Positions 54,234 to 59,750 of a stretch of DNA of 64,000 nt are shown one piece after another. The notes under the pieces were generated by a model, which made no database searches, was not told where the DNA came from, and worked only from the letters and a program-made list of their open reading frames with translations. The position numbers were made by a program, and so were the translations under genes. The stretch covers positions 1 through 64,000 of the forward strand of contig JALSSC010000011.1 in the NCBI GenBank assembly GCA_026984455.1, in the 5' to 3' direction. The DNA is from Chromatiaceae bacterium. GTDB lineage: Bacteria > Pseudomonadota > Gammaproteobacteria > Chromatiales > Chromatiaceae. How positions within the stretch are numbered: the stretch's first letter is position 1; each line of letters opens with the position of its first letter.

Positions 54234-54267
54234 GTCGGCGCCAGCGTGTCTTCAGGGGGAGCATCCA

Positions 54268-55704
54268 TTGATCCACGTCATCGTTACCCTGCCTCTGGTG
54301 GCGGCTGGAGGGCTGCTGGGGCTGTTGCACGAAGGTATGCGTCGGAAACGGCTGGCTGCGCGGCTGTCCTCCAAGAGGATCCGCAGCGCGGCGGATGCCG
54401 AGGCGACGGCGGTGGACGAGCAGGGCCCGGACCGGGACCCTCTCCTCCCACTACAGTACTCGGAGCGCGCCGCGCACCTCGCCCTGGGGGTGTCGGCAGC
54501 CGGGGCGCTCCTCTATCCCCCGTTGGGAATCGCCGCGCTCCCATTCATAGGTTATAGCGCTTTCAATTGGCTGCGTGCCCGGTATCCGGGAGAGCCCACA
54601 CAATGGAAGTCCCCATCGGGAATCCTGGCGCTCCTGGCGTTGGCGGGGGCCCTGGCCACGGGTCACTGGGTGCTTGCCTCCCTGGTCTTGACAGTCGATC
54701 TGGCTGCCCGGAAACGGGCCGCGCAGAGAACGGCGACGGGTTCGCCCCGGATACGACGCTCAGCCCTGTCACGCCGTGGCAACGCACTGCGCATCGCCTT
54801 GTTTGTGCTGACGAACGTCGCAGTACTCTTGTTGATGACCGTCGTACTGGCCATGTTCGGCATCGCCCCCCGCGGTTTGCTCGAGTTGGCTGTGTTCGCT
54901 CTCGGCTTCGGCATGTCTGGATCCCTCATCTCGCTTGCACTGTCGAAATGGCTCGCCAAGCTGAGCACGGGCGCCCGTGTGATCGACGAGCCGCTGACCG
55001 CGGCTGAACAGTGGTTGATCGATACCGTTGCGCACCATGCACGCTGTGCGGGTATCGGCATGCCCGAGGTGGCGATCTACGACTCAGAGGACGTGAACGC
55101 CTTCGCCACGGGCATGAAGCGTGACAAGGCCCTGGTCGCGGTGAGTACGGGCCTGCTCGCCCGTATGACGCCGACAGAGGTGGAGGCGGTCCTCGGTCAC
55201 GAACTGACCCACGTCGCCAATGGCGACATGGTTACGCTGGCGTTGATACAGGGTGTGCTCGATACCTTTGTGATCTTCATCTCCCGCGTGGTGGCCGGGC
55301 TGATCGACGGCTTTACGCGCGGCGGGCGCGACGGGGGCGGCCTGGGCACCCTCGGCTATTGGATCGTGGTCATCGTCTTGCAGCTGACGTTGGGATTGCT
55401 GGCCACCTTGATCGTGATGTGGTTCTCGCGCCAACGGGAGTTTCGGGCGGACGCAGGCGGGGCGGAGCTGGCGGGACGGGAGGAGATGATCAGTGCCCTG
55501 GAACGTTTGCGGAGCGAAAGCGAGCGCTCGCGGTTGCCGGATCGACTTGCCGCCTTCGGGATTCACGCGGGTCCCAGCAGACTGACCCGACTCCTTGCGA
55601 GCCATCCGCCACTCGAGGAGCGTATCGCCGCGCTGAGGACGACAGACACCCCCCAATCGACCGCTGATCTGTGCCCTGGCAACGATGAAGAGATGGCTCA
55701 ATGA
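54268..55704 (+). CDS. HtpX-type M48 protease fused to an N-terminal membrane module
   Basis: About 478 residues from TTG 54268, which has GGGGGAG upstream; ATG 54232 is also in frame. Residues about 172-478 are HtpX: RIALFVLTNVAVLLLMTVVL, the zinc site GHELTHVANGD (His311, Glu312, His315), and REFRADAGGAELAG with the third ligand. HtpX normally starts at that first helix, so 171 residues are extra. The extension has one helix, a basic linker, then YPPLGIAALPFIGYSAFN and LALAGALATGHWVLASLVLT. It resembles the N-terminus of the P-type ATPase at 57711-59750 (see findings). HtpX is a membrane quality-control protease. Confidence 0.88.
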   Translation: MIHVIVTLPLVAAGGLLGLLHEGMRRKRLAARLSSKRIRSAADAEATAVDEQGPDRDPLLPLQYSERAAHLALGVSAAGALLYPPLGIAALPFIGYSAFNWLRARYPGEPTQWKSPSGILALLALAGALATGHWVLASLVLTVDLAARKRAAQRTATGSPRIRRSALSRRGNALRIALFVLTNVAVLLLMTVVLAMFGIAPRGLLELAVFALGFGMSGSLISLALSKWLAKLSTGARVIDEPLTAAEQWLIDTVAHHARCAGIGMPEVAIYDSEDVNAFATGMKRDKALVAVSTGLLARMTPTEVEAVLGHELTHVANGDMVTLALIQGVLDTFVIFISRVVAGLIDGFTRGGRDGGGLGTLGYWIVVIVLQLTLGLLATLIVMWFSRQREFRADAGGAELAGREEMISALERLRSESERSRLPDRLAAFGIHAGPSRLTRLLASHPPLEERIAALRTTDTPQSTADLCPGNDEEMAQ

Positions 55705-55772: not shown

Positions 55773-56981
55773 TCAAGTGACGATGTCGCGTATGGCTTCT
55801 GCAAGCTGGTCCAACTCCTCTTCCGTGTTGTAGAAACCGGTCGATATCCTGGCTGGTGCCGGTAACTGGTGCTCTGGCTCGGGCCGCAGCATGAACTTCC
55901 TTTCATTGAGGCGCATACACAGATCTGATGGATGCCAGCCGTCCACATGGAATCCCACCAGGCCGGCCTCCCTGCCGAGCGGCGTAACGACTCTGGCGCC
56001 GGGGATCTCCCTGAGCAGCCCCTGCATATGCCGGGCCAACCTCTGTATGCGGGAATAGATCCAGTCCATTCCCACGTGTTCAAGCAGATACTCCAACGAT
56101 TTCTGAAACCCTAGGAGAGTGGGCCTGTACATGGACGTGGCGAGCTGATAACGGGCAGCAGAGGGCGCCGGAACAACGAAAGGGGAGACCATATCCAGAT
56201 CCGAACGGTTCCTTACCGATGTCGGGCTGATAAAGGTCGGATCCACTTCGGCTATGCGCTCTTTGGCGACATACAGTGCGCCCACCCCTTCCGGTCCCAA
56301 TAACCATTTCCGACCCGTCATGGCGCAGAAATCGACTGCCCACTCATGCATATCCACCGGTACCGCACCTACCGCCTGAGCCCCATCAACGAGAACACAG
56401 ACCTTGTGGGCGTGGCAGATCTCGACCAGCGCCCGGATCGGAAAGGTGATACCCGTAGATGTCGAGACATGGGATATCACCAACAGCCGGGTCCTTGGCG
56501 TGATCATCCGCTCCACGCAGGAGACGAATTCCTCCTCGTCGTACTCGTCACCATATTTCACCTCGACATATTTGACGACGATACCGTGACGGGATTTGAT
56601 CAATGACAGAGGTGCCAGGCTCGCCACGTGCTCCAGACTTGTGGTAAGCACCTCGTCCCCAGGCAGCCAGCGAAGTCCCCACAAAATAATATTCAGGCCT
56701 TCGGTGGCGCTCTGAGTCAAGGCGATCTCTTCCGGAGAGGCGCCGACGATGCGGGCAAGATGTCTGCGAGTGGCATCCATCTCGCTGTAGAGTTCTTCGA
56801 TGAATGGCAGATACCTGCCCTGCAGATACTCCTTTTCCGCCGCCTCCCTCATGATGTCCGCCCCCATCTTCGGCAAGGGGCCATTGGTTCCGGTGTTCAA
56901 ATAGTGAACGGCGGTTGTCGCTGGCATTTGCGCACGGATGGCGGCAACTTTCTCTCTTTCTTCATCTGGCTGGGTCAGCAT
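55773..56981 (-). CDS. Class V aminotransferase (PLP enzyme)
   Basis: A 402-residue fold-type I PLP enzyme. YLNTGTNGPLPKMGADIMRE starts the core; ALTQSATEGLNIILWGL contacts the cofactor; TTSLEHVASLAPLSLIKSR gives the stacking His118; VLVDGAQAVGAVPVDMHEW the Asp199; and FCAMTGRKWLLGPEGVGALY the PLP Lys225. The group includes cysteine desulfurases, isopenicillin N epimerase-like enzymes and EgtE; substrate cannot be told from sequence. There is no Cys-loop of an IscS-type desulfurase visible. The gene is less GC-rich than the core genes. Confidence 0.9.
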   Translation of the reverse strand: MLTQPDEEREKVAAIRAQMPATTAVHYLNTGTNGPLPKMGADIMREAAEKEYLQGRYLPFIEELYSEMDATRRHLARIVGASPEEIALTQSATEGLNIILWGLRWLPGDEVLTTSLEHVASLAPLSLIKSRHGIVVKYVEVKYGDEYDEEEFVSCVERMITPRTRLLVISHVSTSTGITFPIRALVEICHAHKVCVLVDGAQAVGAVPVDMHEWAVDFCAMTGRKWLLGPEGVGALYVAKERIAEVDPTFISPTSVRNRSDLDMVSPFVVPAPSAARYQLATSMYRPTLLGFQKSLEYLLEHVGMDWIYSRIQRLARHMQGLLREIPGARVVTPLGREAGLVGFHVDGWHPSDLCMRLNERKFMLRPEPEHQLPAPARISTGFYNTEEELDQLAEAIRDIVT

Positions 56982-57210
56982 TGCGACGCCCTTGGGTGAG
57001 TGGCAAGACCGAGATCCCTCCTTCTCTGGCTGAACCGCGCCATCTACATGGGGGCCAACCGCTCCCTATCCTTCGATGCAATTGCCCGCGCAAAATCCGC
57101 GGGCGGTGGCGTGGGGCTCCAAGGAACGAGTGACCGCACGCCGGCCAAAGGATCTCCTCTTCCTCTCGGAGATCCGTCCACGGTGACGGCACCCACCCGC
57201 TGCCAGGAGA

Positions 57211-57390
57211 TCAGAAAGGCTTCTTTCCAGGTCCCAAGAGATACCAGATAATCAGGCCGGCCAGGGGCAACAGTAAGATCAGTAGTGCCCACAGCAGTTT
57301 CTCGACCCCCTTCACAGAACTCTGAAGGACCATGACGACCGCGTAGATGTCTGCGGCCAGAAGAATCAAACCGACGATGCCGCTGCCCAT
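57211..57390 (-). CDS. PLDc_N-type small membrane protein
   Basis: A 59-residue protein (start 57390, GAGG 9 nt upstream). It begins MGSGIVGLILLAADIYAVVM and continues VLQSSVKGVEKLLWALLILL, then LPLAGLIIWYLLGPGKKPF. Two membrane helices joined by a charged loop, W-A-L-L-I-L-L-L-P and the final YLLGPGK, match the phospholipase D-nuclease N-terminal (PLDc_N) small-protein family. Function unknown. It sits between the PLP enzyme and the P-type ATPase on the same strand. Confidence 0.82.
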   Translation of the reverse strand: MGSGIVGLILLAADIYAVVMVLQSSVKGVEKLLWALLILLLPLAGLIIWYLLGPGKKPF

Positions 57391-57710
57391 GATCTCAATC
57401 CTCGCTGTCGTTCGTTACCCAGGAATCCAGACGCGCGTTCGATATTAGGATATAACTGCTGCCCAGGCAGATCGCTCACCTGCATTTTCGCGGTTCCCCC
57501 GGCCTCGACGGCCAGGTGAACATGCCACCGCCCATCCCTACAGATCCGCAGATCTCTCTACGGAGAGATTATAGCTCATGTTTTTCGGCCTACCAGGAAG
57601 CCGGACTTGATGCGTGCCGAGCCAAGAGCCCGTTCTCGTCAAAAACGGAGCCTATGGATACAACATCTCATCCTTGGGAAGCAACGGGGCGGGCTGGCAA
57701 GAACCCTTCC
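57391..57710. other. 320-bp intergenic region, no gene seen
   Basis: Between the PLDc_N gene and the end of the ATPase gene. AT-richer than the core. No coding feature; TCTCTACGGAGAGA near 57554 is a short palindrome. Confidence 0.6.
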
Positions 57711-59750
57711 CTATTCCACCCCGTCAGACCGCATCGAGGATCTCTTGCGAGGGATCTCCCGCCCCTTTCCTTCCCTATATTGAAGCTTTGGCAGCATGGC
57801 GTTGGCCAACGCCAAGGCAAAGCTCGAGTAGATAATGAGATAGGAACAACCCAGGGTCATGCCCCAGAATACAGCCCCTCCAATGCTGATGACACTGGGT
57901 ATGGTGACGAGCGTCAGGCTCCGCCACAGACTGTTCCGGAGATCGTGTGCGATGTCGAACAGATCACACAGATGGGTGAGGGTACCATCCATCAGGACCA
58001 CCTGAGCGGTATCCGTGGCGATCGTCGTGGCCCCCCTCAGGGATACCGAGACATTGGCCGTGTTCATGGCGATCGTATCATTTATGCCGTCGCCCACATA
58101 GCAGACTTTCCTGCCCTGTTGCTGCAATCGTTCCACGATCATTGCCTTTTCCTGGGGAAGCACTTCGTAATGGTAACTGTCCAGACCGAGCGACTCCGCG
58201 AGTCGTCGCGTGGGGTTCTTGTGATCTCCGGATACGATAGAGATATGCTTGACACCCCGCCGGCGTAGCCCTTTCAATATCGTCTCCACCTCAGGCCGAA
58301 GCACGGAGACGATTTCAATCGCCCCTGCGACTTCCCTCCCTATGGCGACCAGTACCAGGGACGTTCCCTCCACACGGGATTGCTCGATCCTGTTTGCGAT
58401 GATCGGGGGAATCTCCATTCCCTCCCTCTCCATGAAACGCGCACTGCCGACGCGAACCACTTTGTCCGCAATGGTGGCAGTTATTCCGTAACCCATGGTA
58501 ATGCTCGAATCGTCGATGGATGGCAGGTCGAGACGGGATTCCCGCGCTCTATTTATTATTGCTCTGGCAATGGGATGCGTGAGCCTGTGTTCGGCGGTGG
58601 CAGCGTATGTCAGAATTTCATCGGCACCGTAGCGGTCGCCTGCACAGACGATCCGACCGGCCTTGGGTTCCTCGTGCGTCAGTGTTCCGGTCTTGTCGAA
58701 CAGTACGGTATCCACCTCGTTCATTTCCTCGATGACACGCCCGTCCTTGATCAAGATACCGCGGCGGAAGGCCGCGTGGAGATAATTCAGGGTCGTGATG
58801 GGTGCGGCGATCCGTAGACGGTTCCCAAATGTACTGTGAATGACGGTGGTGGCGGCCAACAACCCCTTGACAGGAAGGGTCACCACGGTGAGTCCGGCAA
58901 TGGGGATGGCGATGTAATCGGCCCACTTCTCGCCTTTCAGTTGGATCGAGGTTGCATAGGCGGATGTATTTCGTAGTATTTTCTCGATCTCTGAGATGAC
59001 GGTTTGGTTGCCGGATTTTGTGACCTTGACCTGGATTCGCCCCCCGACAACGAGGGTCGATGCAAACACCGGCTGCCCTTTCTCCTTTTCGATGAATTCT
59101 GACTCGCCGGTCAGGGTATGCTGGTCGATTACCGCCATACCTTCCACGATGACGCCATCCACAGGGATGATTTCGCCGGCCCGGACAACGACAACATCTC
59201 CGACGGAGACGCCAGCGAACGCCACCTCGATTTCAACACCCTTTCGCACAACCCATATCTTATCTGCTTGTTGCTCGACCAGATGGGTGACAATGGGCTT
59301 GGAGTGGGCCTGATTCATGGCCAGTATCTTTGCCCCGGTGTGATAGAAAAAGACGCCTAACGCGATATAGGTCTGCTGGCGGGTCAGGAAGGCCATTATG
59401 ATATAGGCACTGTATAGCAAGTCGTGACCTATTGTCCTTCTTTCCAGCAACTGTCTCTGGCCGCGCTTCAGGATAGGTAGACACGTATAGACAATGAACG
59501 CAAGGCTTAGCGGATTGAGTACAGGCAGAAATTTCGTCAAAGTGGCCAGGCCCAAGGATATGAGGCTGATCGTGAAGTGACGATTGATCGACTCTTTCGA
59601 TTCAATGATATTGGTGCGCCGCGTCAGTGATCCCCGTGACCGTTCTGTCGGCTGGGCCCGGCTTGCAGGCCTTGTCTTCCGCCGCCGGTAGTAATCGAAG
59701 ATATTGACTCCGATGACAGAGCCCAAGAGAATGCCAATTCCTGCGACCAT
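57711..59750 (-). CDS. P-type ATPase, heavy-metal-like, lacking the CPC motif
   Basis: A 679-residue protein. One N-terminal helix, a basic linker, then helix pairs (FLPVLNPLSLAFIVYTCLPI; YSAYIIMAFLTRQQTYIALG). A-domain TGES at 214-217, P-domain DKTGTLTHEE at 352-361, the P1B-type HP motif in EHRLTHPIARAI, and GDGINDTIAMNTANVSVSLR are intact. At the place of the P1B metal-binding CPC it reads RIAAPITTLNYL (313-324), so the usual Cys ligands are missing. No N-terminal metal-binding domain. The exported ion is unknown. The gene is less GC-rich than the core genes. Confidence 0.9.
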   Translation of the reverse strand: MVAGIGILLGSVIGVNIFDYYRRRKTRPASRAQPTERSRGSLTRRTNIIESKESINRHFTISLISLGLATLTKFLPVLNPLSLAFIVYTCLPILKRGQRQLLERRTIGHDLLYSAYIIMAFLTRQQTYIALGVFFYHTGAKILAMNQAHSKPIVTHLVEQQADKIWVVRKGVEIEVAFAGVSVGDVVVVRAGEIIPVDGVIVEGMAVIDQHTLTGESEFIEKEKGQPVFASTLVVGGRIQVKVTKSGNQTVISEIEKILRNTSAYATSIQLKGEKWADYIAIPIAGLTVVTLPVKGLLAATTVIHSTFGNRLRIAAPITTLNYLHAAFRRGILIKDGRVIEEMNEVDTVLFDKTGTLTHEEPKAGRIVCAGDRYGADEILTYAATAEHRLTHPIARAIINRARESRLDLPSIDDSSITMGYGITATIADKVVRVGSARFMEREGMEIPPIIANRIEQSRVEGTSLVLVAIGREVAGAIEIVSVLRPEVETILKGLRRRGVKHISIVSGDHKNPTRRLAESLGLDSYHYEVLPQEKAMIVERLQQQGRKVCYVGDGINDTIAMNTANVSVSLRGATTIATDTAQVVLMDGTLTHLCDLFDIAHDLRNSLWRSLTLVTIPSVISIGGAVFWGMTLGCSYLIIYSSFALALANAMLPKLQYREGKGREIPRKRSSMRSDGVE

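Follow-up and report, generated by a model that had tools for sequence, protein, structure and literature searches.

The 64,000-nucleotide stretch of DNA analysed here (the window, belonging to genome G000) encodes an HtpX protease that is preceded, in one open frame, by a conserved 172-residue membrane module, in which an extra helix (TM0) and a basic linker are followed by four helices (MA-MB-M1-M2) homologous to the first core helices of a subfamily of P1B-like ATPases. The structure and descent of this module are well supported, and its function is a reasoned guess. The reading that we favour, tentatively and at somewhat less than an even chance, is that of a mobile membrane docking or addressing module, which would place the proteins that carry it (its passengers) in the membrane neighbourhood of these ATPases. 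The front helices of a P-type ATPase appear in this setting as a travelling part, borne by a protease, by DoxX proteins and by a dead actuator domain.

Organization of the fused gene

The fused gene (54268..55704, forward strand, as are all features of the fusion) encodes 478 amino acids, HtpX and the residues preceding it forming one open frame with Pfam and NCBIfam matches; a second copy is present in genome G081. Its start codon is the TTG at 54268. The Shine-Dalgarno-like stretch AGGGGGAG, read from the sequence at 54254..54261, together with the perfect Shine-Dalgarno sequence AAAGGAGGT that precedes the homologous TTG of G081, supports this start; an ATG twelve codons upstream may be an alternative. 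The preliminary description had set the beginning of HtpX at about residue 172, and these coordinates proved right, the HtpX portion starting at residue 173-174. The core (residues 173-478; 54784..55701) matches NCBIfam PRK05457 over residues 174-459 with 396 bits (cut-off 245) as well as Pfam PF01435 (Peptidase_M48). Inspection of the translation revealed the zinc-protease motif HELTH at residues 311-315 (55198..55212) and REFRAD at residues 390-395 (55435..55452), the region of the third ligand, a role that we take to be that of its Glu. The protein has the HExxH and third-ligand motifs of an M48B HtpX, and the score of its core exceeds the threshold of the family. The extension, by comparison, gave no significant Pfam match and is found in neither Pfam nor NCBIfam, and literature searches found no report of the module or of a module-HtpX fusion.

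A structure model of the module alone (pLDDT 68) predicted helices at residues 2-39, 60-82, 84-104, 116-131 and 134-153. TM0 (residues 1-22; 54268..54333) is helical in this model and its profile is common to DoxX, stand-alone and MerC proteins (see below). It is followed by the basic linker (residues 23-59; 54334..54444), in which nine Lys or Arg residues occur and the identity between G000 and G081 is low (30% over residues 28-57). The model and the profile alignment then delimit an MA-MB hairpin (residues 60-104; 54445..54579), containing YPP and PFIGY, and an M1-M2 hairpin (residues 116-153; 54613..54726). Ten further basic residues lie in the stretch that joins M2 to the first helix of HtpX. 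The basic residues ahead of MA and behind M2 would put the TM0 tail and the start of HtpX on the cytoplasmic side, so that the protease would have its usual orientation; the active site of HtpX is cytoplasmic. Lacking M3-M6, the module cannot act as a pump.

Homology of the module to ATPase N-termini

The ATPase encoded downstream in the window (57711..59750, reverse strand, as are its features; GC 0.553) was classified by NCBIfam, motif reading and modelling as a P1B-like enzyme of a related subfamily that is devoid of CPC, SPC and SCA. It scores 384.7 bits against TIGR01525 (cut-off 346), which places it in the P1B family, and it possesses the catalytic motifs TGE, DKTGT, HP and GDGIND at positions 214, 352, 387-393 and 553. 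At the M4 position where metal pumps have CPC, SPC or SCA, the alignment shows FGNRLRIAAP (58800..58829), and thus no Cys/Ser metal motif. Relatives with 63-65% identity occur in the order to which G426 belongs. The predicted helices of this ATPase (residues 2-26, 52-71, 76-102, 109-122 and 126-159; pLDDT 78) correspond to those of the module, which bears out the order of helix, basic linker and helix pairs noted in the preliminary description: its TM0 comprises residues 1-26 in the structure model (59673..59750), and residues 51-159 (59274..59600) constitute the MA-MB-M1-M2 portion that hhalign and the models identify as homologous to the HtpX module. The ATPase model aligned with ZntA (4umv) from residue 51 to 658 on 126 to 730 (Z 26.8, rmsd 6.5, 570 residues aligned).

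A BLASTP comparison between the fusion and the ATPase of the window gave no match in the module, and hhalign of the module against the clade that includes the window ATPase (five rows) yielded a probability of 3.4% and an E-value of 0.013, albeit in the register that had been proposed earlier. Profile-profile comparison, the check suggested in the preliminary description, gave significant matches with the wider subfamily: the HtpX and DoxX modules matched 15 subfamily ATPases at 97.7% (E 1.4e-12, 89 columns), and all modules matched the 15 N-termini at 98.8% (E 1.3e-16, 99 columns). The real scores of 78.0 and 103.2, respectively, were far above the best of 60 block-shuffled controls (27.6 and 37.1), the reversed-alignment controls (18.9 and 20.0) and the DoxX, HtpX and CPC-pump controls (≤23.8). 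The module profiles in these runs and controls contained a wrongly cut, nearly empty row, L218, which was omitted from the tree described below (36 of 37 rows used). By these comparisons, the resemblance between module and ATPase is one that exceeds chance only once relatives are included; the ATPase-like N-terminus claimed earlier is therefore upheld by the family profiles and not by the two window proteins alone.

Further searches used an HMM built from two HtpX and four DoxX modules against 4585 ORFs, a set that contains many ATPase loci fetched by module searches as well as duplicates (rows listed once by their first 60 residues). The fusions ranked at the top, ahead of the stand-alone proteins (E 9e-23 to 4e-16) and a MerC protein having TM0 only (L234, 3e-10). 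The 20 consecutive rows below it were all N-termini of subfamily ATPases in register (2e-7 to 0.06), the first other row being at 0.077. A joint alignment of 13 modules and 23 ATPases displayed a nearly gap-free core of about 95 columns around YPP...P..GY. The profile matches, the correspondence of the helices and the ZntA alignment beginning at residue 51 together identify the C-terminal two thirds of the module as the MA-MB-M1-M2 helices of a P1B-like pump; TM0 and the basic tail, which make up the first third, are extra relative to the pump core. What had been called an N-terminal module of the ATPase is hence truly homologous, being for the most part the pump's own first four core helices with one helix added.

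With the module, hhalign found nothing significant among ordinary CPC and SCA pumps; the subfamily itself matched CPC pumps at 95.2% and SCA pumps at 97.6%, and its profile also matched ZntA. As the module itself has no significant direct match to such pumps, its connection with P1B enzymes goes via the subfamily. A fold search with the low-confidence model of the module alone returned generic helical bundles, with no pump structure among the matches listed. When the module profile was compared with the PDB sequences, the sole match was a weak one to PsbY (0.00044), which was taken as chance.

In the tree, all non-ATPase modules formed one clade (95/93) adjoining two ATPases, G008:C21 and G241:C191 (98/91). 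The HtpX and DoxX modules were sisters (99/98), and the window ATPase was not adjacent to the module clade. On this phylogeny, the module is descended from an ATPase lineage other than that of the window ATPase; we infer a single departure from one pump lineage, followed by changes of passenger.

Distribution and history of the HtpX fusion

A search of 210 genomes from the same family gave 17 matches to the extension at E ≤ 0.05, two of which are HtpX fusions. The second fusion (G081:C14; E 5.7e-47) is 65% identical to that of the window across the whole protein. Between the two, the module is 52% identical (153 codons; 54-55% for the same pair over other lengths) with a dN/dS of 0.34, and 0.22 for TM0; the HtpX core is 69% identical with a dN/dS of 0.13 (301 codons). 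The dN/dS values argue that the extension is translated and constrained, and the fused gene is, as judged from sequence, intact and under purifying selection on both halves.

A 57-genome draw contained 40 close HtpX rows (E ≤ 5.5e-78), and only that of the window covered the whole extension; among the 80 named loci that were retained out of 578, none aligned before residue 137. The core is 52-62% identical to many plain HtpX proteins. A tree built from 109 HtpX cores showed the two fusions as sisters (100/100) on a stem of 0.57, outside the plain HtpX of the family, which include that of G015, a member of the same genus as G081. No additional close HtpX was found in G000 or G081. Beyond the window's fusion, a 398-genome draw from the phylum gave only three ATPases and one unassigned match in G755, and a plasmid search gave no match. 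We infer a single origin of the fusion, on a divergent HtpX that was transferred or sporadically kept.

The long stem of the fused pair, its position outside the family's plain HtpX and its presence in two genomes only are also what would be expected if the module merely anchors or stabilises the protein, the fusion being a harmless accident on a divergent HtpX spread by transfer. We regard this as improbable, given the constraint on the module and TM0, the conservation of the start and of its Shine-Dalgarno sequence, and the fact that DoxX and stand-alone proteins carry the same module.

Other passengers of the module

The proteins found with the module comprise two HtpX fusions, six DoxX fusions and nine stand-alone proteins, in addition to one MerC protein with TM0 only. 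The stand-alone proteins (open frames of 259-293 aa; genomes G008, G068, G387, G426, G579, G580, G581, G592 and G593) consist of the module and a degenerate actuator domain that lacks the TGE motif. Three of the nine were scanned and matched Pfam PF00122 (E1-E2_ATPase) with 27.8-47.5 bits (cut-off 28.1), one falling just below the cut-off. The six DoxX fusions occur in five genomes and are 373-383 aa long; the one that was scanned matched PF07681 (E 2.3e-13). In the MerC protein (G593:C261; L234, 1480-2193; PF03203, E 7e-20), only TM0 and an FQRKRL basic tail are present, suggesting that these can travel without the four-helix part.

The variety of passengers bears on the idea, raised in the preliminary description, that the module is a shared sensor. 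As a sensory or regulatory input, the pump-like bundle would bind the ligand of the ATPases or feel the membrane and switch the protease on or off. Such a role would account for a four-helix bundle and loops kept nearly gap-free and for the conserved residues of the M1-M2 turn (TGHW in the two HtpX fusions and TGN in the DoxX fusions), and it finds an analogy in the transporter-like domains of some sensors. We nevertheless consider it unlikely. Half of the transport path (M3-M6) is missing, DoxX and dead actuator passengers share no output to be regulated, and the module has no Cys and four His, none of them invariant across modules; a metal sensor in particular is not favoured.

Association with the ATPase subfamily

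In the window, the fusion and the ATPase are 2007 bp apart. Random placement in 2.83 Mb would give such a distance in about 0.14% of cases; since the earlier reader saw only pairs within one 64-kb window, a fair estimate would be of the order of some per cent. Between the two genes lies a class V aminotransferase/SufS-like gene (55773..56981, reverse strand; GC 0.573; Pfam and NCBIfam). The aminotransferase and ATPase stretch (55773-59750) has a GC content of 0.55-0.57 versus 0.63-0.70 in its surroundings and was probably acquired. As the GC content of the fusion is 0.63-0.68, the fusion and the ATPase were probably not acquired together, and joint acquisition is not favoured.

The linkage is close in the order of G426: of its 12 module proteins of the DoxX and stand-alone kinds, 11 have a subfamily ATPase at a distance of 335-11556 bp; the remaining one (G592:C331) is on an 8-kb contig with no ATPase match. 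All six module-bearing genomes of this order (G426, G579, G580, G581, G592 and G593) have 5-9 subfamily ATPases at E ≤ 1e-120 (6-14 when all matches at E ≤ 1e-40 are counted), and the four tested genomes of the order that have no module proteins have none. The expectation that an ATPase of this type would always be nearby fails, close as the link is in that order: subfamily ATPases are absent from G081 (HtpX fusion; 87% complete) and G387 (stand-alone protein; 95%), in which the best matches are 30% and 27% identical, and in G008 the stand-alone protein and the subfamily ATPases are on separate contigs. A strict dependence on the ATPase is not supported, because G081 and G387 have the module without it.

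These absences also weigh on the proposal that the module proteins are regulatory pseudo-subunits, which would associate with the ATPases via the shared helices, HtpX degrading or processing the ATPase itself. The actuator domain that the stand-alone proteins retain without TGE and the tight linkage in one order fit this scheme; with subfamily ATPases missing from two module-bearing genomes, we rate it as quite unlikely. To our knowledge, P1B pumps of known structure function without such a partner.

The genomes G426, G579, G580, G581, G592 and G593 contain islands (L209, L210 and L237-L247) in which subfamily ATPases stand beside a MamK-like actin, which scores 386.5 bits against NCBIfam MamK (cut-off 400). 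The G581 island also contains the selenoneine genes SenA and SenB, EgtD, YcjX, DUF697 proteins and a Band 7 protein. Genome G068 (1.6 Mb; L138, L142, L143 and L144) has at least eight subfamily ATPases, on contigs C3, C9, C34, C43, C98, C126, C148 and C184, and C3 also holds a MamK homologue. At L149, L150, L151 and L211, subfamily ATPases are found beside sulfotransferase-, TauD-, Rieske oxygenase-, methyltransferase- and enolase-superfamily-like genes (translations read by eye), possibly small-molecule gene clusters. Across 26 genomes, a MamK homologue (E ≤ 1e-30) was detected in 11, namely in 11 of the 20 with subfamily ATPases and in none of the six without; the same search found none in G000 or G081. 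Large sulfur bacteria have a MamK-like actin, Bbp, according to the available portion of one report (PMC10580974). A far-reaching extension of the docking idea, which we hold to be a long shot, is that the module may direct its carriers to a specialised membrane domain or organelle that has at its centre an enlarged complement of P1B-like ATPases devoid of the metal motif, together with a MamK/Bbp-type actin. The HtpX fusion would be its dedicated protease, and ATPase and M48 protease would form a bacterial quality-control pair for membrane proteins, like Spf1 and Ste24.

Proposed function

On the sequence evidence, the module became separated from its pump and is now borne by stand-alone, DoxX and HtpX proteins. 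Its reuse on proteins that share nothing but the membrane speaks for a role in location or docking and against one in catalysis or signalling, and the targeting to a shared membrane partner put forward in the preliminary description is plausible. According to the docking reading, the module is a docking or addressing part that would have no transport path of its own. TM0 and its basic tail, along with the bundle of pump-like helices, would bring the passenger into the membrane patch or complex of proteins that recognise the bundle; the simplest candidates are the subfamily ATPases, or else the proteins with which these usually associate. With HtpX, the passenger would be a zinc protease that degrades membrane proteins and has its active site on the cytoplasmic side, and it would act on these membrane proteins or be regulated by them. 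Against this reading stand the lack of the ATPase in G081 and G387, the separate contigs in G008, the GC mismatch in the window, the descent of the module from another ATPase lineage and the small number of HtpX fusions, two in all. If docking or addressing is correct, the module would provide a handle on an uncharacterised ATPase subfamily, of which a genome may contain 5-9 copies in the vicinity of a MamK-like actin, and on the way in which a housekeeping membrane protease can come to have a restricted set of substrates.

Comparison with known systems

Compared with plain HtpX (M48B, PRK05457), the core, HELTH and REFRAD of the fusion are alike. Plain HtpX is about 285-300 aa long and begins at the first core helix, whereas the fusion, at 478 aa, has the five-helix module of 172 residues in front, and its core forms a long-stemmed clade of its own with G081. 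With regard to ZntA (4umv) and CopA (3rfu), the subfamily ATPase aligns with both pumps, its N-terminal part being where the module matches; the module adds TM0 and the basic linker, and the subfamily is without CPC or SCA. The ferrosome ATPase FezB (P1B-6) has an SCA motif in M4, unlike the window ATPase. The DoxX and MerC proteins of the G426 order carry the same module (DoxX) or its TM0 and basic tail (MerC) on other passengers. In yeast, the P5A ATPase Spf1 and the M48 protease Ste24 are quality controllers of membrane-protein topology (PMC10456885). They are two separate eukaryotic proteins, for which the available portion of that source describes no shared module; in pairing a P-type ATPase with a relative of HtpX, they are the nearest functional parallel to the system described here.
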